DNA from: Methylobacterium sp. 77
GTDB taxonomy: Bacteria > Pseudomonadota > Alphaproteobacteria > Rhizobiales > Beijerinckiaceae
Length of the DNA: 64,000 nt
Assembly: GCF_000372825.1 (NCBI RefSeq)
Contig: NZ_KB910516.1
Coordinates: 3,143,825 to 3,207,824, forward strand
Direction of reading: 5' to 3'
This document shows positions 53,006 to 63,030 of the stretch, in pieces (positions within the stretch are counted from its first letter, which is position 1; the number at the start of each line of letters is the position of its first letter). The notes below the pieces were generated by a model that did not search any database, was not told the DNA's origin, and saw only the letters and a list, made by a program, of their open reading frames with translations. Made by a program: the position numbers and the translations under genes.

Positions 53006-54100
53006 ATGATCCACCGATGCCTCCCGCCGGCCGCCTCGACACCGATCCGCCTGCGAGGAATACGCAGGTTCGTGGCGGTCATCACGGCCCTCGCCGGCCT
53101 CGCACTCGCCACCGGGGCAGCGACCGCCCGCCCCTTCGTCGACGCTGCGGGCCGCACGGTGCAAGTGCCGGACCGCGCCACCCGAATCCTCGCCGCCGGT
53201 CCGCCGGCCTCCGTCCTGCTCTACACCCTGGCGCCCGAGGCGATGATCGGGTGGGTCCGTGCCCCCTCCCCCGACGAGGCCGCCTTCCTGACGCCGGAGA
53301 CGCGCGGCCTGCCCGCCTATGGCCGGCTCACCGGCCGGGGCAACACCGCCAATGTCGAGGCCGTGCTCACCCTGAAGCCGGATCTCATCATCGATGTCGG
53401 CAGCACGGCGCCGACCTACGTCTCGCTAGCCGACCGGGTGCAGGCGCAGACGGGCATCCCCTACATTCTCCTCGACGGCAGCCTCGACCGGACGGCCGAG
53501 ACCTATGCCAAGCTCGGCGAGCTGGTCGGCGCGCGCGAACGGGCGACGGAGCTTGCCGCCGATGCAGAGGCGACGATCGCCGAGGTCAGGGGCCGGATCG
53601 CGTCGATCCCCGCCGACAGGCGCCCGCGCGTCTATTACGCCCGTGGACCGCGCGGATTGGAGACGGGGGTCGCCGGCTCGATCAATACCGAGATCCTCGA
53701 ACTCGCCGGCGCCCGCAACGTCGCCGAGGGCGGGGGCGCCACCGGCCTCACCACGATCTCGCCGGAACAGGTCCTGGCCTGGGATCCCGACGTCATCGTC
53801 ACCCTCGACCCCGCCTTCCGGCAGGCCATCGCCGGCGATCCGCTCTGGAGCACGCTCCGGGCCGTGCGCGCCGGCCGGGTCTACCAGACGCCGCGCCTGC
53901 CCTTCGGCTGGTTCGATTCACCGCCGGGGATCAACCGCCTGATCGGCCTGCGCTGGCTCGCGGGCTTGCTCCATCCCGGCCTGTTCCCCGAACCGATGGA
54001 AGGAGTGACGCGCGACTTCTACCGGCGCTTCTACCATCTCGACCTCGATGCCGCGCAGCTGCGAACACTGATGAAGGATTCCGAGGCGACCCGGCCGTGA
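53006..54100 (+). CDS. ABC importer periplasmic binding protein (BtuF/FecB-like)
   Basis: A 364-residue protein with a signal peptide (AVITALAGLALATGAATA) and the class III binding-protein fold: VDAAGRTVQVPDRATRILAAG at the start, LKPDLIIDVGS, and a C-terminal PFGWFDSPPGINRLIGLRWL (cited in part). Binds an iron chelate, heme or cobalamin in the periplasm. Operon with permease and ATPase (GTGA overlaps). Confidence 0.85.
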   Translation: MIHRCLPPAASTPIRLRGIRRFVAVITALAGLALATGAATARPFVDAAGRTVQVPDRATRILAAGPPASVLLYTLAPEAMIGWVRAPSPDEAAFLTPETRGLPAYGRLTGRGNTANVEAVLTLKPDLIIDVGSTAPTYVSLADRVQAQTGIPYILLDGSLDRTAETYAKLGELVGARERATELAADAEATIAEVRGRIASIPADRRPRVYYARGPRGLETGVAGSINTEILELAGARNVAEGGGATGLTTISPEQVLAWDPDVIVTLDPAFRQAIAGDPLWSTLRAVRAGRVYQTPRLPFGWFDSPPGINRLIGLRWLAGLLHPGLFPEPMEGVTRDFYRRFYHLDLDAAQLRTLMKDSEATRP

Positions 54101-55137
54101 CCACCTCCGCCATCGCCGCCCGGCCGGCCCTGCGCATCGCGCTGCGGGGCGTGCTCCCGCTCCTCGCGCTGCTGCTCCTCGTCGTCGTGTCGCTGGCGAC
54201 GGGCAAGTTCGCGGTGCCCGTCGCCGACGTGGCGCGGATCCTGTGGGCGACGCTGTCCGGCGTCCCATCTTCCGTCGATGCGACCGCGCAGATCGTGGTG
54301 CTGCAGGTGCGCCTGCCGCGCGTGGCGGCGAGCCTCGTCGTCGGCGCGGCCCTCGCCGCGGCGGGCTCGACCTACCAGGGCCTGTTCCGCAATCCCCTGG
54401 TCTCGCCCGACATTCTCGGCGTCTCGGCGGGGGCGAGCCTCGGCGCGGTGCTGGGCATCTTCCTCTCGCTTCCCGTCGGCGCGATCCAGCTCCTCGCCTT
54501 CGCGGGGGGATTGCTCGCCGTCGGCGCGGTCTATGCGGTGGGCCTCGCGGTGCGGCGGCACGATCCGGTGCTCACCCTGGTTCTGGCCGGGGTCGCCATC
54601 GGGGCGGTGCTCGGCTCGGCGATCTCGCTGCTGAAGGTGCTGGCCGACCCCTACAATCAGCTCCCCGCCATCACCTACTGGCTGCTCGGCAGCCTCACCG
54701 CCGTCACCCTCGGCGATGTCGGCGCCATCCTGCCGGCGATGACGCTCGGCCTGCTGCCGCTGGTCCTGCTCGCCTGGCGGATGAACCTGATGAGCCTGGG
54801 CGAGGAGGAGGCGCGGGCGCTCGGCGTCGAGACCCGCCTGCTGCGCCCGCTCTTCATCGCCGCGGCGACGCTGGTGACCGCGGCGGCCGTCTCGGTCACC
54901 GGCGTGATCGGCTGGATCGGCCTCGTCATCCCGCATGTGGCGCGGCTGATCGTCGGGCCGGATTTCCGCCGCCTGCTGCCGGCCTCGCTGCTGATGGGGG
55001 CGGGGTATCTCCTGGCGGTCGATCTCGTCGCCCGCACCATCGCGCCGATCGAGGTGCCCCTCGGCATCCTCACCGCGCTCATCGGCGCGCCGTTCTTCCT
55101 CTGGCTTCTCGCCACCGCCAAGCGGGGCTGGGCGTGA
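54097..55137 (+). CDS. ABC importer permease (FecCD/BtuC family)
   Basis: A 346-residue, about ten-helix permease with family motifs RLPRVAASLVVGAALAAAGS, QGLFRNPLVSPDILGVSAGA and GLVIPHVARLIVGPD. GTG start overlapping the binding-protein stop. Forms the transmembrane channel for the chelate. Confidence 0.9.
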   Translation: MTTSAIAARPALRIALRGVLPLLALLLLVVVSLATGKFAVPVADVARILWATLSGVPSSVDATAQIVVLQVRLPRVAASLVVGAALAAAGSTYQGLFRNPLVSPDILGVSAGASLGAVLGIFLSLPVGAIQLLAFAGGLLAVGAVYAVGLAVRRHDPVLTLVLAGVAIGAVLGSAISLLKVLADPYNQLPAITYWLLGSLTAVTLGDVGAILPAMTLGLLPLVLLAWRMNLMSLGEEEARALGVETRLLRPLFIAAATLVTAAAVSVTGVIGWIGLVIPHVARLIVGPDFRRLLPASLLMGAGYLLAVDLVARTIAPIEVPLGILTALIGAPFFLWLLATAKRGWA

Positions 55138-55907
55138 GCCTCGTCGTCGAGGATCTCGCCTTCGGCTACGGCGCGACGACCATCGGCGAAGGTGTCGGTT
55201 TGAGCCTGGGCGCAGGCGAGGTGCTCGGCCTGCTCGGGCCGAATGGCGGCGGCAAGACCACCCTGTTCAAGACCATCCTCGGCCTGATCCCAGCCAAGGC
55301 GGGGCGGATCGTCCTCGACGGCGAGGATGTCGCGACTTGGTCGCGGGCGCGGTTCGCGCGCAATGTCGCCTACGTGCCCCAGGCACAGGCCGCCTATTTT
55401 CCCTTCCGGGTGCAGGACGTGGTGCTGATGGGCCGCGCCAGCCGCCTCGGCGCCTTCGCCACGCCCGGCAGGGCGGACGAGGCGGCCGCCACCGAAGCCC
55501 TGGCCGCCCTCGGCATCCGCCACCTGTCCGAGCGCAGCTACACCGAGATCAGCGGCGGCGAACGCCAGCTCGTCCTCATCGCCCGCGCGCTGGCGGGAGA
55601 ACCGCGCTTCCTGGTCATGGACGAGCCGACCGCCAGCCTCGATTTCGGCAACCAGGCCCGGGTCCTCGATCAGGTGCGGCGCCTCAGGCAGCGCGGCATC
55701 GGGATCGTGCTCTCGACCCACGACCCCGACCACGCCTTCCTCTGCGACACGGTCGCCCTCCTGCATGAGGGCCGCCTGCTGGCGCTGGGACCACCGAAGG
55801 AGGCGGTGACGCCGGAGACGCTGCGGCTCCTCTACGGCGTCGCGGTCGCGATCGTGCCGCTGCCGGGCGAGGACCGCTTCGTCTGCACGCCGATCCTGTC
55901 GCGCTGA
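55134..55907 (+). CDS. ABC importer ATPase (FecE/BtuD family)
   Basis: A 257-residue ATPase: Walker A GPNGGGKTT, signature ISGGERQLVLIARAL, Walker B FLVMDEPTASLD, and the switch His in STHD. GTG start overlapping the permease stop. Powers import. Confidence 0.92.
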   Translation: MSLVVEDLAFGYGATTIGEGVGLSLGAGEVLGLLGPNGGGKTTLFKTILGLIPAKAGRIVLDGEDVATWSRARFARNVAYVPQAQAAYFPFRVQDVVLMGRASRLGAFATPGRADEAAATEALAALGIRHLSERSYTEISGGERQLVLIARALAGEPRFLVMDEPTASLDFGNQARVLDQVRRLRQRGIGIVLSTHDPDHAFLCDTVALLHEGRLLALGPPKEAVTPETLRLLYGVAVAIVPLPGEDRFVCTPILSR

Positions 55908-56569: not shown

Positions 56570-56596
56570 TGTCACATTAGGCTTTCGCGCTTCGTC
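56570..56596 (+). promoter_or_regulatory. ECF41-type promoter P1 (TGTCACA-N16-CGTC)
   Basis: TGTCACA at 56570-56576 and CGTC at 56593-56596 are separated by 16 bases, matching the published ECF41 promoter consensus. The -10 element ends 33 bases before the ATG of the membrane-protein gene that leads the sigma-factor operon, implying positive autoregulation. Confidence 0.75.
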
Positions 56597-56629
56597 ACTC
56601 TCGTGAACCAATCACGTGAGGAGAGCGCG

Positions 56630-57025
56630 ATGAGCAAAACCATACCGGTGCTCGCCGGATGTCTTGGTGCAGGCTTGGTCGGCAACGGCATCTTCATGCT
56701 CATCTCACCCGAAGCATGGTACTTCGCGGTTCCGGGCGTGACCTCGACGGGGCCGTTCAATCAGCACTTTCTGCGCGACATCGGTTTGATCTTCGTGCTG
56801 ATCGGGGCAGGATTTGTGTTCGGGGCCGTGAGATCCGGCTCGCGCGCGCTGCTCTGGAGCATGGGGGCGATCTGGCTCTCGGGCCACGCGCTGTTCCACT
56901 TTTGGGAGGTGGCGGTCGGCATCTGTGGCCCGGAGGTTCTGCCCCGCGACTTTCCTGCGGTGACACTTCCTGCGCTTATCGCGGTCGCCCTCAGCGTCTG
57001 GTCGGTTCGCCATGCCGATCACTGA
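56630..57025 (+). CDS. Four-helix membrane protein, first gene of the ECF41 operon
   Basis: A 131-residue protein with four hydrophobic helices (IPVLAGCLGAGLVGNGIFML; DIGLIFVLIGAGFVFGAV; ALLWSMGAIWLSGHALF; LPALIAVALSVW). GAGGAG precedes ATG 56630. Overlaps the sigma-factor start by 14 bases. Driven by P1; possibly a DoxX-like or stress membrane component, or a modulator of the sigma factor. No classical anti-sigma domain is visible. Confidence 0.7.
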   Translation: MSKTIPVLAGCLGAGLVGNGIFMLISPEAWYFAVPGVTSTGPFNQHFLRDIGLIFVLIGAGFVFGAVRSGSRALLWSMGAIWLSGHALFHFWEVAVGICGPEVLPRDFPAVTLPALIAVALSVWSVRHADH

Positions 57026-57911
57026 CGATCCGACCCTCGTCTTCGAACAGGAGCGGACGCGTCTCGTCCGGCTCGCCTACCGGATGCTCGGGTCCCTCAC
57101 TGAAGCGGAGGATGTCGTACAGGATGCCTGGCTGCGCTGGCGGCACGTCGACCATGCTGGGATTGTAACGCCCGCAGCATTTCTGTCTCGGACCGTCACG
57201 CGGCTCTGCCTGGATGTGATGAAGTCCGCCCGTGCGCGCCGCGAGACCTACGTTGGAACCTGGCTGCCCGAGCCCGTCGCTCTGCCGCCCGATGAAGACG
57301 TGGCCGACGACATGACGCTGACGTTGATGCTTGCATTGGAGAGGCTTTCGCCGCTGGAGCGGGCCGCGTTCCTCCTGCACGATGTCTTCTCGGTCCCCCT
57401 CGACGAAGTGGCAACGACCCTCGGACGCGAGCCGCCGGCCGTTCGTCAACTCGCATCACGGGCCAGGAAGCACGTCCAGTCGGCTCGCCCGCGCTTCCCG
57501 GTGGCGCGAGACGAGGGTGCACGCATCGCGAAAGCCTTCTTCGAAGCATCTTCAACGGGCAACGTCGCGGCACTCCGCGCGATGCTCGCCGCCTCCGTCA
57601 CCGTGCATTCTGATGGAGGCGGCAAGGTCCTCGCCTTCCCGAAGCCGATCATCGGCATCGACAAGGTCACGCGGATGCTGGAAGGCATCGCCCGGAAGGC
57701 GTGGATCCAGGGCGCTCGGAAGCTGCAGGATCTCTGGATCGACGGACTGCCGGGCTACCTCAGCCTGGAGCCCGGCGGGATGCTGCAGACGGTTGCCCTC
57801 GATATCCAGGGTGGACTGATCGTCGGCATCTACTTCACCCGTAACCCGGACAAGCTCGCGCGCTTGGCCGAGAAGTTCGATGGGACGGTGGGGACGAAGG
57901 CGCCGCATTAA
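57012..57911 (+). CDS. ECF41-group RNA polymerase sigma factor (SigJ-like, SnoaL-type C-terminus)
   Basis: A 299-residue protein: sigma2 (RLAYRMLGSLTEAEDVVQDA), sigma4 (LSPLERAAFLLHDVFSVPLD) and a fused C-terminal SnoaL-like domain. The ECF41 hallmarks are all present: WLPEP in the linker (84-88), DGGGK (201-205) and NPDKL near the C-terminus (278-282). In ECF41 proteins the C-terminal domain replaces a separate anti-sigma and tunes activity. Cotranscribed with the overlapping membrane-protein gene from P1, so likely autoregulated. Confidence 0.92.
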   Translation: MPITDDPTLVFEQERTRLVRLAYRMLGSLTEAEDVVQDAWLRWRHVDHAGIVTPAAFLSRTVTRLCLDVMKSARARRETYVGTWLPEPVALPPDEDVADDMTLTLMLALERLSPLERAAFLLHDVFSVPLDEVATTLGREPPAVRQLASRARKHVQSARPRFPVARDEGARIAKAFFEASSTGNVAALRAMLAASVTVHSDGGGKVLAFPKPIIGIDKVTRMLEGIARKAWIQGARKLQDLWIDGLPGYLSLEPGGMLQTVALDIQGGLIVGIYFTRNPDKLARLAEKFDGTVGTKAPH

Positions 57912-57914
57912 GCG

Positions 57915-58358
57915 TCAGCGGCGCCTCGCGATTGCCAACTCCCTCCGGCACGCCGTCGAGAAGGCGCAGAGCGGGTCGAGGTCGCTTGAGTGGCGGATGT
58001 CCGCGAATGCGGCGAGATCCTTGTTCGGGGCGAAGTAGGTCTCGCCGATCCGCTGCATGACGCGCTCGGCCTCGTTGAGCGTCTCAGGCTCCCCGAAGAG
58101 CCGGACCTTGTTCACGATGGCATAGAGGTTCACCAGCTTGGCCGGGTCGTCGAGGTCATGTCGGAAGGCGTCGCCGAACAAGGTCGACGCCTCCCGGATG
58201 AACTCGCCGTAGAGCGCCTCTCGTCGCGCACGATCCTGGACGAGCAGGGTCGCGCGCTCCTGGCTATGCTGCGTCAGCCATGTGGTCGCAAAGGAGGCCA
58301 TGGCGCCGATGGCTGACCCCGCGAGGGCGGAAAGCGCCGAGATGTAGGCCGCATCCAT
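57915..58358 (-). CDS. Membrane-anchored hypothetical protein
   Basis: A 147-residue protein: N-terminal membrane helix (YISALSALAGSAIGAMASFA) then a long helical, charged domain (ERATLLVQDRARREALYGEF). It lies 12 bases after the SDR gene and is probably cotranscribed from P2. Function unknown. Confidence 0.65.
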   Translation of the reverse strand: MDAAYISALSALAGSAIGAMASFATTWLTQHSQERATLLVQDRARREALYGEFIREASTLFGDAFRHDLDDPAKLVNLYAIVNKVRLFGEPETLNEAERVMQRIGETYFAPNKDLAAFADIRHSSDLDPLCAFSTACRRELAIARRR

Positions 58359-58370
58359 CGGCGGGAAGCC

Positions 58371-59129
58371 TCAGCTCACGCGCTTCGGCTGTGTCGCCAC
58401 CCAGTCTTCGTAGCGCCACTGCGAGAGCCATGCGTCTTCATCCGGTGTCAGCCAGCGGTCTTCGAGGACGACACCGAAGTAGGGTGCCGTGTCGTCCCGG
58501 ATGACCTCACGCGTGTCACCAACGCCGTCGAAATGACGCCGCACCAGCTCGTCCATCGGCAGTCTCTCAGGGCCGGCGATCTCGACCATGCCGTTTCGAG
58601 GTGGCGCCAGGGCGGCTTCGGCAACCTTGGCAGCGACATCGGCCGAAGCGATGGGCTGGATCGAGGCGGACGTCGCACGCGCGCTGCCGTCGACAATTGC
58701 GGCTGCGGCAATCGTGGCGACGAACTCGAAGAACTGGGTAGCGCGCACCACGGTCCAGGGCACGCCGGCCGAGGCGACCAACTCCTCTTGCGCGAGCTTG
58801 GCCCGGAAATAGCCGCTGTCGAGCAGGCGCTCGGTTCCCACGACCGAAAGGGCGACGTGGTGCGAAACGCCCGCCGCCTTTTCGGCCTCGGCCAGATTCT
58901 GTCCGGCGCGGACGAAGAAATCCATCACCGCGTCGTCGGCGAAGGAGGGTGAGTTGGCGACGTCGACCACGACATGCGCGCCCCGCAGGGCTTTCGCCAA
59001 GCCCTCTCCCGTCACAGCGTTCACCCCCATACTGGGCGAGGCCGCCAGCACCTCATTGCCAGGAGCTTTTAGGGCGGAAACAACCTGCGAGCCGATCAGC
59101 CCGGTGCCGCCGATGACAACGATTTTCAT
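58371..59129 (-). CDS. NmrA/SDR-family NAD(P)-binding oxidoreductase
   Basis: A 252-residue atypical SDR. It has the glycine-rich GGTGLIGSQV nucleotide motif (8-17), VVDVANSPSF, HHVALSVVGTERL and a WTVVRATQFFEF segment in place of the classical YxxxK. Such genes are recurrent partners of ECF41 sigma factors. ATG 59129 gives the standard MKIVVIGGTG start; the P2 promoter lies 48 bases upstream. Confidence 0.8.
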   Translation of the reverse strand: MKIVVIGGTGLIGSQVVSALKAPGNEVLAASPSMGVNAVTGEGLAKALRGAHVVVDVANSPSFADDAVMDFFVRAGQNLAEAEKAAGVSHHVALSVVGTERLLDSGYFRAKLAQEELVASAGVPWTVVRATQFFEFVATIAAAAIVDGSARATSASIQPIASADVAAKVAEAALAPPRNGMVEIAGPERLPMDELVRRHFDGVGDTREVIRDDTAPYFGVVLEDRWLTPDEDAWLSQWRYEDWVATQPKRVS

Positions 59130-59439
59130 GTGACGCTCCATCTCAACCACAGTCCCGGCGGGACCGTCACGGTCATGACGAGAAGCGCCCCTCGCAGTGT
59201 GACATTGGCGCGGAAAATCGATGCGCTCGACTTGGGCCTGCGAAGGCATGACCTTCTGGGATGCTTGGGACGAGGGCGGTCCCAAAAAAGACGGTTCCCG
59301 TTCGAATCTGCTCGGACGGCTCACGACCTTACGAAAGCGCATCCCCGGGACAGATTCCGGGGATGAACGAGTTTTGACAAGGGAGCCGTGCACGACCCCG
59401 CATTCGAAGAGGGACCGCGTCAGCACGGTCCCAATGTAT
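59130..59439 (-). other. 310-base gap holding ECF41 promoter P2
   Basis: The P2 promoter of the SDR gene lies at 59177-59204. The remainder contains no repeat or credible gene and ends at the convergent-side 3' end of the metallo-hydrolase gene. Confidence 0.5.
59177..59204 (-). promoter_or_regulatory. ECF41-type promoter P2 (TGTCACA-N17-CGTC)
   Basis: On the minus strand TGTCACA (59204-59198) and CGTC (59180-59177) are 17 bases apart, upstream of the SDR gene and its downstream partner. Confidence 0.65.
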
Positions 59440-60387
59440 TCAGTAGTCCCAGAACACGGGAACCCATCGAAAAGCGTCGCCATCAACCGCGACCCGACCG
59501 ACCGACGGGAACGGCAGATGCGTGGCGATCAGCTGCTCGCCGGACGCCGCCAGTTCCCGCAAAAGCCGAACGCGAACACGCGCCGCCTCTTCGGGATCAT
59601 GTTCGAAGCCGTTGTGCCAGTCGGGGTGCTCAAACCCGACCGAGAACACGGCGTCGCCGGCGAAGGTCAGCCGGTCGCCGCCGGATGCCAGGCGCACCAC
59701 ACTATGCCCCGGCGTGTGGCCGCCGGTGCGACGGACGATCACCCCCGGCGCGACCTCATGCTCCTCGTCGAACAGCCGCAATTGACCGCGGTACTCTTGC
59801 GCAAACCGTTTGGCGGCTGCGCGAAGCGCATCAGGGAACCCCTCTGGCATGTTGACGTGAGCGAAATCCGGCGCTTCCCAGAACTTGACCTCGGCAGCCG
59901 CCACGTGGATCCGCAGGTCCGGGCGGAGCCGCTCCTTCACGCCGTCGACGAGGAGCCCGCCGACATGGTCCATGTGCATGTGGGTCAGCACCACGTCGGT
60001 CACAGACGCGAGGTCAATCCCAACGGCGTCCAACCGCCTGATCAGTTGACCTGCCCGCGGCAGGTTCAGGTTCGGATCCAGCCCCAACCCGGCGTCGATG
60101 AGGATGGTCTGATCGCCACTGCGGACCACAACCACGTTCAACGACCAGTCGAACGCGTCCTGAGGCAGGAACATGTCGTTCAGCCACGCCGCCCTTAGGG
60201 CCGGTTCGACGTTGTGTCCCAACATCTTGGTAGGGAGCGGCAACACGCCATCGCTGACGACCAGCACGTCGATCTCGCCGATCCGTACCGCGTAACGCGA
60301 GGGCACCAACTCCTCACCCCCCAAGCGCGGAGTGCCGGCATACGCCGGATCGGTTCGTCCGGCATTGGCAGTTACTGCATCAGTCAT
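59440..60387 (-). CDS. MBL-fold metallo-hydrolase, ECF41-regulon member
   Basis: A 315-residue metallo-beta-lactamase-fold protein. The metal motif is THMHMDHVGG (HxHxDH), with HTPGHS and later FAGDAVFS (metal-binding Asp) and THLPFP (His). Lactonase- or hydrolase-type activity is likely; substrate unknown. ATG 60387 has AAGGG upstream and leaves a sensible leader after promoter P3. The longer frame to 60444 would start almost at the -10 element. Confidence 0.8.
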   Translation of the reverse strand: MTDAVTANAGRTDPAYAGTPRLGGEELVPSRYAVRIGEIDVLVVSDGVLPLPTKMLGHNVEPALRAAWLNDMFLPQDAFDWSLNVVVVRSGDQTILIDAGLGLDPNLNLPRAGQLIRRLDAVGIDLASVTDVVLTHMHMDHVGGLLVDGVKERLRPDLRIHVAAAEVKFWEAPDFAHVNMPEGFPDALRAAAKRFAQEYRGQLRLFDEEHEVAPGVIVRRTGGHTPGHSVVRLASGGDRLTFAGDAVFSVGFEHPDWHNGFEHDPEEAARVRVRLLRELAASGEQLIATHLPFPSVGRVAVDGDAFRWVPVFWDY

Positions 60388-60457
60388 CGTCATCCCTTTC
60401 GTGGGACGCGCGTAGATCTGTCTCAGCAGGATCGCGAAACGCACGTCATGTCTGAGG

Positions 60458-60484
60458 GACGAGCCTAGGTAGGCAGGTGTGACA
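60458..60484 (-). promoter_or_regulatory. ECF41-type promoter P3 (TGTCACA-N16-CGTC)
   Basis: On the minus strand TGTCACA (60484-60478) and CGTC (60461-60458) are exactly 16 bases apart, about 70 bases before the ATG of the metallo-hydrolase gene. Confidence 0.75.
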
Positions 60485-60856: not shown

Positions 60857-62047
60857 TTAGATGGCGAGGCCGAAGGCGAGGGTGCTGTCGAGGCCGTAGG
60901 AGAGCATCACGTGGCTGTCCATGATCTTGTTCGTGACCTGGCCGCGGAGCGACTTGATCTCGTGCTGGCAGGTATCGGCCATCATGGCGCCGGCGCCCAG
61001 TAGGGTGCGCGAGCCCATCACCGAATCGAGCGTCACGGTCTCGGTGGCGAAACGGCCCTTGAACGACTCGTCGCCGCACAGGAAATCGATGGTGCGGTAG
61101 CCGTGGTCGATGGACCACTGGATGTAGTCCATCATCAGGACCATCCCCGGCGATCCCCGCTCGAAATCGGGATCGTAGGTGGTGACGAAAGCCATCATCG
61201 ACCCGGCCTGCACGAAATTCACCGACACCGCGATCACTACCCCGTCGCATTCGAGCACGAAGAGATGGAGCAGGCCGGTCTCGGCCAGGACGCGCACGAG
61301 GGCCGGCAACGCAGGGGTACCCTCGTCGAACAGGGCGGATTCGAGCGCGCGACCGTCGAGCCATTTGCGCTTGAGCGCCGCGAGCCGCTCGAGGATCGGC
61401 TCGATCGACTCGTCGGGGCCGACCAGCCGGAACCGCAGCGGCCCCTGCTCGGACAGGAATTTCTGCCCGCGCCGATAGTTCTGACGCATCTTCTTGGACT
61501 GGCCGTCGAACCATTCCTGGCCGCTGCGCCAGGACCCGACGACGCGAGAACTCGCCTCGCTGCGATGGTTCGGGTGGAGGCCGGCCGCCTCCCTCTGCGC
61601 GGGCCCGAGGAGCGCGCGGATCTTCGCGTTCGGCAGCATGCGGTTGACATAGATCAGGTCGAACCCGCCGGCGGCGAGGAGATGCTCCCACATCCGGCCG
61701 ATCACGGCAGAATCGTCGCCGGGCGCGAGGAGGGCATCGCCGTAATCGGCATGGTCCTTGGCCGCCCATTCGAGGAGAAGGACGCCGCGGCGGCGACAGG
61801 TGGCGAGCGGGAGGACCGCCTCGAGCCGGTCGCCCCGCCAGGCCAGCACGATCAGGAGCGCGCGCCGCTCCCGGTCCGGGGCGGTCGTCCACCACGCCTG
61901 GATCCAGGCATGGCTCTGGAACACCAGGCCGCCGGCACGCTGCCACAGGTCGGTCCAGGCGGTCTCGACGGCGGCCAGCCGCTCCGGGGACCGCACGATT
62001 TCGAGCCGTTCGGCCACGGCTTTTCCGGGATGCGCGAATGCGTTCAC
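60857..62047 (-). CDS. GNAT-superfamily acetyltransferase, BcsL/CelD type
   Basis: A 396-residue protein of the CelD/BcsL (Acetyltransf_6) kind: VFQSHAWIQAWW, then WFDGQSKKMRQNYRRGQKFL (family KNRRR-like motif) and the late YDPDFERGSPGMVLMMDYI and FLCGDESFKGRFA motifs. Such enzymes act in polysaccharide or surface-lipid modification. GTG 62047 overlaps the stop of the upstream hydroxylase gene (GTGA), so the two form an operon. Confidence 0.8.
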   Translation of the reverse strand: MNAFAHPGKAVAERLEIVRSPERLAAVETAWTDLWQRAGGLVFQSHAWIQAWWTTAPDRERRALLIVLAWRGDRLEAVLPLATCRRRGVLLLEWAAKDHADYGDALLAPGDDSAVIGRMWEHLLAAGGFDLIYVNRMLPNAKIRALLGPAQREAAGLHPNHRSEASSRVVGSWRSGQEWFDGQSKKMRQNYRRGQKFLSEQGPLRFRLVGPDESIEPILERLAALKRKWLDGRALESALFDEGTPALPALVRVLAETGLLHLFVLECDGVVIAVSVNFVQAGSMMAFVTTYDPDFERGSPGMVLMMDYIQWSIDHGYRTIDFLCGDESFKGRFATETVTLDSVMGSRTLLGAGAMMADTCQHEIKSLRGQVTNKIMDSHVMLSYGLDSTLAFGLAI

Positions 62048-63030
62048 GAGGGAGTCCCTTTCTTCGCGGCGAGGCCAGCCTTGGCGCGGGCAAAGCCGGC
62101 GATGTGGCGCCACATTTCCTTCAACGGCAGGACGTAGAGCCCGAACAACGACTGGTAGTCCCTGACGTTTCGGTCCATCAGCCCGAACGTGAAGTCCTCG
62201 TTCGGCTCTGGCACGCACAACGTCCCGAACAGACGATCCCAGAACGAGAACATCAGCCCGAAATTCTTGTCGTAATGCTTCGGGTTCGTGCTGTGATGCA
62301 ATTGATGCCAGTGCGGGCACAGGATGATGGTATTCAATCGACCGAACGAAATCTTGAAATGCGTGTGCCGCACGAAATCCATCATCAGGATATTGCGCAT
62401 GATGTAGACGTTGATGCCGAAGATCGTCACCTCGACCGGATCGAGCGCCACCAGCGTCCAGAGGCCGAAGCAGAGGCCCGGAATCACGCCGTCCCAGATC
62501 CGGTTCATCAGCTCGTCGAGGGGGTGGACCCGGTCCTTGGTGATCCCGACCATGACCTCGGCGGAATGGTGGACCTTGTGCAGTTCCCACAGCAACGGGA
62601 AGGCGTGCTGGGCCTTGTGATAGACGTAATACGAGATGTCGTAGGCCAGCAGCATCGTCAGCGTGAAGAGGCAGACGGTGATCGGGCCGGGCGGCCCATC
62701 GAGCAGAGGCGCATGGATGCCGAGCGCCCGCCCGACGACGACATGGGTGGCATAGCCGACCGCGACGACGAAGGTGATTCCGGCCGGGATCAGAAGGAAG
62801 GGCATGATCGCCCGGCGCGTGATCCAGAACAGAAGGTCGGCCCTGGCGGAGGGGTGTGTCGCCACCTCGTGGGGCAGCACGAATTCGAAAAACTCCCGGA
62901 CCGATTTCTGCTCGACCGTGCGCCAATAGGCGATCAGCGCGCAGCAGAAAGCCGTCAGCAACAGCAGGACGGCAGCAATCATGCCCGACGACGAGATCCT
63001 TTGCTGAACGATCTCGATCATCGTCTCCAT
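62044..63030 (-). CDS. Sterol desaturase / fatty acid hydroxylase superfamily membrane enzyme
   Basis: A 328-residue membrane protein with the full set of histidine boxes for a di-iron centre: HKAQH (138-142), HKVHH (151-155), HTH (222-224) and HWHQLHH (240-246), between hydrophobic helices. Hydroxylates or desaturates a lipid chain. Operon with the CelD-type acyltransferase suggests joint modification of a surface lipid. Confidence 0.88.
   Translation of the reverse strand: METMIEIVQQRISSSGMIAAVLLLLTAFCCALIAYWRTVEQKSVREFFEFVLPHEVATHPSARADLLFWITRRAIMPFLLIPAGITFVVAVGYATHVVVGRALGIHAPLLDGPPGPITVCLFTLTMLLAYDISYYVYHKAQHAFPLLWELHKVHHSAEVMVGITKDRVHPLDELMNRIWDGVIPGLCFGLWTLVALDPVEVTIFGINVYIMRNILMMDFVRHTHFKISFGRLNTIILCPHWHQLHHSTNPKHYDKNFGLMFSFWDRLFGTLCVPEPNEDFTFGLMDRNVRDYQSLFGLYVLPLKEMWRHIAGFARAKAGLAAKKGTPS

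Follow-up and report, generated by a model that had tools for sequence, protein, structure and literature searches.

The ECF41 sigma factors form a widespread group for which promoter signature, activity and truncation experiments have been reported in two species (PMC3426412). That account describes ECF41 factors as generally controlling a single gene or operon, with one target in each of the two species, and reports that partial removal of the C-terminal extension raised the activity of two factors about 20-fold and 120-fold; it found no reproducible phenotype, and no oxidative-stress phenotype, in the two species. Here we analyse a 64,000-nucleotide stretch of the Methylobacterium sp. 77 genome (contig NZ_KB910516.1, positions 3,143,825 to 3,207,824; hereafter the window), in which an ECF41 gene is surrounded by three candidate promoters (Table 1). 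We consider it highly probable that the locus is a small three-promoter ECF41 regulon, comprising an operon of the sigma gene and a small membrane protein, TM1 (TM1-ecf41), an NmrA-like gene followed by a second small protein, TM2 (NmrA-TM2), and a gene for an MBL-fold hydrolase. To judge from its sequence, it is a real, conserved multi-operon form of the known ECF41 system, and the three promoters are its unusual part, because published ECF41 factors are generally single-target (PMC3426412).

Table 1. Predicted features of the ECF41 locus, in window coordinates.
Feature	Position	Strand	Remarks
ECF41-type promoter 1 (candidate), TGTCACA-N16-CGTC	56570..56596	+	ahead of TM1-ecf41 operon, 0 mismatches
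TM1, 131-amino-acid membrane protein	56630..57025	+	reading frame overlaps sigma gene
ECF41 sigma factor, 299 amino acids, C-terminal NTF2/SnoaL-like domain	57012..57911	+	
TM2, 147 amino acids, one N-terminal hydrophobic segment	57915..58358	-	directly after NmrA gene
NmrA-like NAD(P)-binding protein, 252 amino acids	58371..59129	-	PF05368, PF13460, PF01370 above cut-off
ECF41-type promoter 2 (candidate), TGTCACA-N17-CGTC	59177..59204 (59204-59177)	-	ahead of NmrA-TM2, 0 mismatches
MBL-fold metallo-hydrolase, HMHMDH motif	59440..60393	-	PF00753; start codon 60387 or 60393
ECF41-type promoter 3 (candidate), TGTCACA-N16-CGTC	60458..60484 (60484-60458)	-	ahead of MBL hydrolase gene, 0 mismatches

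All three sites reported by a first-pass annotation of the window proved exact at their positions, and TGTCACA/CGTC is, as it had claimed, the signature given in PMC3426412. A pattern search of the window with TGTCACA-N16/17-CGTC found these three, against a mean of 0.15 and a maximum of 2 in 100 shuffles of the window. The genome scan for which that annotation had called showed no equal density elsewhere: across 4.66 Mb, the form with an N14-19 spacer gave seven matches versus one for the reversed-pattern control, and with the fuller −10 element TCGTC and an N16/17 spacer there were three exact matches, every one in this locus. When one mismatch was allowed in the TCGTC pattern, the rest of the genome returned 21 sites versus 8 with the reversed control; a crude, purpose-made gene caller classified 20 of the 21, placing 12 inside a predicted gene and 8 outside, of which 3 had a reading-frame start within 300 nucleotides downstream. 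With 12 of 20 classified sites inside predicted genes, extra targets at one mismatch in this genome were set aside. One such site, at genome position 2032336 and 58 nucleotides ahead of a 257-amino-acid reading frame, was put down to chance, given that the near-consensus sites assayed in PMC3426412 showed no activity. That the three sites themselves arose by chance is rejected by the genome counts, the shuffles, the reversed-pattern controls and the footprints described below. The distance from CGTC to the start codon is 33 nucleotides for TM1 (an ATG), 47 for the NmrA gene and 64 or 70 for the hydrolase gene, depending on the start codon chosen; the hydrolase probably begins at one of the two ATG codons in Table 1, which are favoured because a GTG at 60444 lies only 13 nucleotides past CGTC.

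The sigma factor carries the three motifs by which the first-pass annotation had recognised it as ECF41, all exact (WLPEP from residue 84, DGGGK from 201 and NPDKL from 278) and nearly invariant across an alignment of 33 relatives. DGGGK, which that annotation had named, is a motif of the ECF41 C-terminal extension. WLPEP is given as an ECF41 motif in PMC3426412, and NPDKL in PMC7730460. Sigma regions 2 and 4 (PF04542 and PF08281) scored above cut-off, as did the SigJ subfamily model (357.9 bits, cut-off 271), and the sequence match to SigJ (5xe7) covered residues 11-283 (E 5.4e-44); SnoaL was not listed in a Pfam scan of the protein at E 0.001. An AlphaFold model based on 33 sequences had a mean predicted local distance difference test score of 87.5, and a fold search with it placed SigJ top (TM-score 0.72/0.78) and SigG1 of group ECF56 second, while also returning NTF2-like proteins. 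SigG1 being the next match, ECF41 and ECF56 are not separable by fold alone. The C-terminal SnoaL/NTF2-like extension characteristic of ECF41 is indicated by the model and the SigJ match, target promoters of the form TGTCACA-N16(±1)-CGTC are represented by the three conserved sites, and the neighbouring COE gene of the group (carboxymuconolactone decarboxylase, oxidoreductase or epimerase) by NmrA (PF05368), two genes off and convergent, which falls in the 'epimerase' partner class of PMC3426412. The locus departs from a further trait, a single target gene or operon, in having three conserved promoters by sequence only, and PMC3426412 states that trait as general, not as a definition of ECF41. 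A search of the genome at E 1e-30 found this one ECF41 gene.

Conservation was followed in a sample of 111 genomes of the genus, identified as Methylobacterium by named relatives; the close relatives of TM1 that carry a source name are mostly from this genus. A sigma orthologue with 76% identity or more was found in 21 of the genomes (one a partial match), several of the orthologous stretches ending early at contig ends. In leaders aligned at the gene start, 18 of 19 orthologues have a perfect promoter 1, and the remaining one has a single mismatch; this footprint omits G386 (TM1 not found at 40% coverage), G351 (contig end), and G022 and G400 (which belong to a different ECF41 clade). All 22 aligned leaders of promoter 2 have a perfect site, with a 17-nucleotide spacer in 21, and so do all 20 leaders of promoter 3 among the orthologous hydrolase genes of the sample. 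Pairwise identity in these leaders is 0.98-1.00 for the −35 and −10 elements versus 0.57-0.58 for the spacers. The alignments thus show the sites to be conserved and, on this footprint, genuine. The hydrolase gene lies, in different relatives, beside NmrA, about 3 kb further, across the sigma operon or inverted, and in each of these arrangements the site is present. It was found in 20 of the 111 genomes, a count that includes G025 (internal stop in the match) and G400 (partial match); all 20 also have an ECF41 gene, a co-occurrence with a chance of 5e-7 if genomes are taken as independent.

Motif and sigma gene are linked across the whole genus sample as well. ECF41 genes occur in 59 of the 111 genomes, and at least one TGTCACA-N14..16-TCGTC site was found in 51 of these 59 versus 8 of the 52 without an ECF41 gene (Fisher 1e-14, a value which, like the other genus P values, is overstated, the genomes being related). 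In G362, one of those 8, two plausible sites lie close to the end of a contig, where its sigma gene may be absent from the assembly only. A perfect site was also seen on contig C95 of G393 (locus L198), a genome with no ECF41 match, before a 229-amino-acid frame that begins like the hydrolase; a search of G393 for the hydrolase at E 1e-80 found none.

Clusters of three sites are rare among ECF41 loci at large. In 80 diverse named ECF41 loci, some shorter than 18 kb, there were no perfect sites in 41, one in 31, two in 8 and three in none; the reversed-pattern control matched in one of the 80. At least three sites were present in 15 of the 21 orthologous loci (Fisher 2e-13 versus the diverse loci) and three in 2 of 27 other ECF41 loci of the genus, a non-random set of which some were fetched for holding a site. 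Pattern searches, which gave a match in 161 of 298 family genomes and also took in 61 relatives, served to find loci and not as a test. No such ECF41 regulon was described in a literature search of titles and abstract openings, to which most subscription journals were out of reach.

The genes behind promoters 2 and 3 encode an NmrA-domain protein (PF05368) and an MBL-fold protein (PF00753), in keeping with the earlier proposal that the unit would control an NmrA/SDR redox enzyme and a hydrolase. Of the two membrane proteins also proposed, TM1 stands as such and TM2 has one hydrophobic segment only. TM1 gave no match in a Pfam scan; its relatives in loci L088 and L090 have a weak DUF4345 match, under the cut-off of that family, and source annotation labels TM1 relatives once as DUF4345 and once as DoxX. 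The closest solved structures to the MBL protein are the MBL-fold hydrolase 7y7u and the organophosphorus hydrolases 4o98 and 4le6, along with a reconstructed lactonase ancestor, methyl parathion hydrolases and the acylhomoserine lactonase 4zo2. Against the NCBIfam model for AidB-type quorum-quenching lactonases it reached 126 bits, below the curated cut-off of 360, and by these scores it is best described as a relative of the AidB-type lactonase, not filed as a member.

The NmrA leader (59130-59176, minus strand) contains an inverted repeat, GTCCC-n-GGGAC, kept in most orthologues (21 related leaders). Of the cells in this 5-base-pair repeat 89.5% are paired, and at two of its pairs both sides have changed, each time in a single sequence, which was too little support for a structured RNA. 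By eye, from translations, genes flanking the locus at 53006-55907 resemble a FecBCD-type metal-chelate ATP-binding cassette transporter, and a frame at 62044-63030 a fatty acid hydroxylase or sterol desaturase-like membrane enzyme.

We strongly infer that the three promoters are read by this sigma factor, because their motif is the published ECF41 signature; the factor would thereby bring RNA polymerase to all three, which are packed into 4 kb. Because promoter 1 precedes the factor's own operon, TM1-ecf41, this would bring positive feedback, and the autoregulated unit with three promoters that the first-pass annotation had predicted fits the family, motif, footprint and co-occurrence evidence. 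By homology with other ECF41 factors, the C-terminal NTF2/SnoaL-like domain would hold the factor down until a ligand or a change of shape releases it. A ligand and a role in detoxification are a guess: going by their classes, the enzymes might jointly dispose of some reactive or lactone-like compound, and the signal would be this compound or a product. We know of no established ECF41 signal.

The alternative that survives best leaves the regulon otherwise the same and is not exclusive of it: the membrane proteins, chiefly TM1, might share in control; one of them could, for instance, be a partner in the membrane that holds the sigma factor or senses on its behalf. TM1 adjoins the sigma gene in 20 of the 21 orthologous loci, its frame overlaps that gene in the window, three further loci (L088, L090, L100) have a TM1-like gene, together with a site, upstream of the sigma gene, and an antagonist of SigG1, an ECF56 factor that likewise bears a SnoaL domain, is encoded by a neighbouring gene (PMC7730460). 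Many ECF41 loci have no TM1 match, however, and in the two species of PMC3426412 the fused domain controls activity, no separate anti-sigma factor being evident. We regard a regulatory role for the membrane proteins as unlikely, at about one chance in several.

Improbable by comparison is a single-target unit, in which only one promoter is used, that of NmrA or of the sigma operon, while the other two resemble promoters but are inactive. It would accord with the one target found in each of two species and the three inactive near-consensus sites of PMC3426412, and with the one target of RpoE9 in Sinorhizobium meliloti (PMC6180224). All three sites here are exact, however, unlike the candidate sites of Bacillus licheniformis and Rhodobacter sphaeroides, which PMC3426412 says do not match the consensus exactly, and all three are kept against drifting spacers, including at moved hydrolase genes.

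Several observations nevertheless weigh against the three-promoter regulon. Direct tests in other species gave one target only (PMC3426412; PMC6180224), and the genus genomes are not independent. No exact TCGTC site was found in 8 of the 59 genus genomes with an ECF41 gene, and G016 would not be one of the 51 but for a single sequence present in 15 copies. The orthologous sigma gene occurs without the hydrolase gene in 4 of 21 genomes (G014, G029, G031, G386), and a perfect site nearby is lacking in 41 of the 80 diverse ECF41 loci. In a class sample the hydrolase gene was found in 6 further genomes of 385, and these six Alphaproteobacteria have neither an ECF41 gene nor a perfect site in the stretch around it, the search covering those stretches and not whole genomes; in Stenotrophomonas tumulicola the hydrolase gene adjoins an ECF41 gene and has no site.

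The repeated sequence of G016, identical in its 15 motif-bearing copies on contigs C2 and C3, is probably a repeated or mobile element and not a set of promoters. Two of the six class-sample stretches (L243 in G685; L246 in G447) hold NmrA and decarboxylase-like genes close to the hydrolase, L243 also TM1 and TM2, and regulator-like frames of other kinds were seen nearby by eye in both. The six clusters and the Stenotrophomonas case rule out a strict pairing of ECF41 and MBL genes. Because the six stretches lack an ECF41 gene and a perfect site, the enzymes look like a module that is under ECF41 in Methylobacterium and under something else elsewhere. That another regulator or sigma factor reads the motif, with the ECF41 gene just one of its targets, is very improbable: such clusters without an ECF41 gene in the stretch and the 8 of 52 ECF41-free genus genomes with at least one exact site speak for it, and against it stand the lack of a perfect site in those six clusters, the published ECF41 signature and the concentration of sites in ECF41 genomes (51 of 59).

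The three-promoter regulon has a predicted fourth target in relatives, a carboxymuconolactone decarboxylase gene, at times far from any ECF41 gene; a search of the window's own genome at E 1e-50 found no copy. A site lies 47 nucleotides ahead of the decarboxylase start codon in 23 of 23 copies (20 perfect, 3 with one mismatch). Seven copies stand either on a contig that carries no ECF41 gene or at least 90 kb away from the nearest one. One of these, in G362, is at a contig end; in each of the remaining six the site is perfect, and the distances that could be measured are 90 kb, 178 kb and 2.04 Mb. G316 packs three ECF41 genes and eight perfect sites into about 20 kb (L151, L152; contig C40, about 109063-129140), with one site ahead of a 479-amino-acid protein with a nucleotide cyclase domain (PF00211) and another ahead of an alpha/beta hydrolase. 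Beside NmrA in L053, too, there is a cyclase-like frame with a site. Tentatively, and with rather less than even confidence, we suggest that the ECF41 factors of Methylobacterium jointly govern a detoxification regulon built of modules, acting both in cis and in trans, its modules being TM1-sigma, NmrA-TM2, the MBL hydrolase and the decarboxylase, with the nucleotide cyclase and alpha/beta hydrolase in one genome; targets would join or leave through one promoter code common to paralogous factors, and the same enzyme module would elsewhere be under other regulators.

The conserved co-regulated set of an NmrA-like protein, an MBL hydrolase and a CxxC decarboxylase-family protein would narrow the candidate signal and job of such factors, and three promoters within 4 kb offer a compact reporter set for Methylobacterium. 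With the ECF41 systems of B. licheniformis and R. sphaeroides (PMC3426412) the locus shares the promoter signature, the linker and C-terminal motifs, the NmrA/epimerase partner class and a site before the sigma operon or partner gene, table 4 of that paper listing sites before both genes in many divergent pairs; it differs in having three units instead of one target, an MBL hydrolase among the targets and two small membrane proteins. By sequence as well as by fold, the top match is SigJ of Mycobacterium tuberculosis (5xe7), which aligns across almost the entire length, SnoaL-like domain included, at about 32% identity in the structural alignment. RpoE9 of S. meliloti has TGTCACA-N16-CGTC 9 nucleotides upstream of a mapped operon start (PMC6180224, PMC3616915), whereas its one target is a carboxymuconolactone decarboxylase operon. 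Azospirillum RpoE10 is likewise of the ECF41 type; citing papers describe its action as reaching past a single adjacent enzyme gene, to lateral flagella (PMC12826043, PMC8999054), and its targets differ from those of the Methylobacterium locus.

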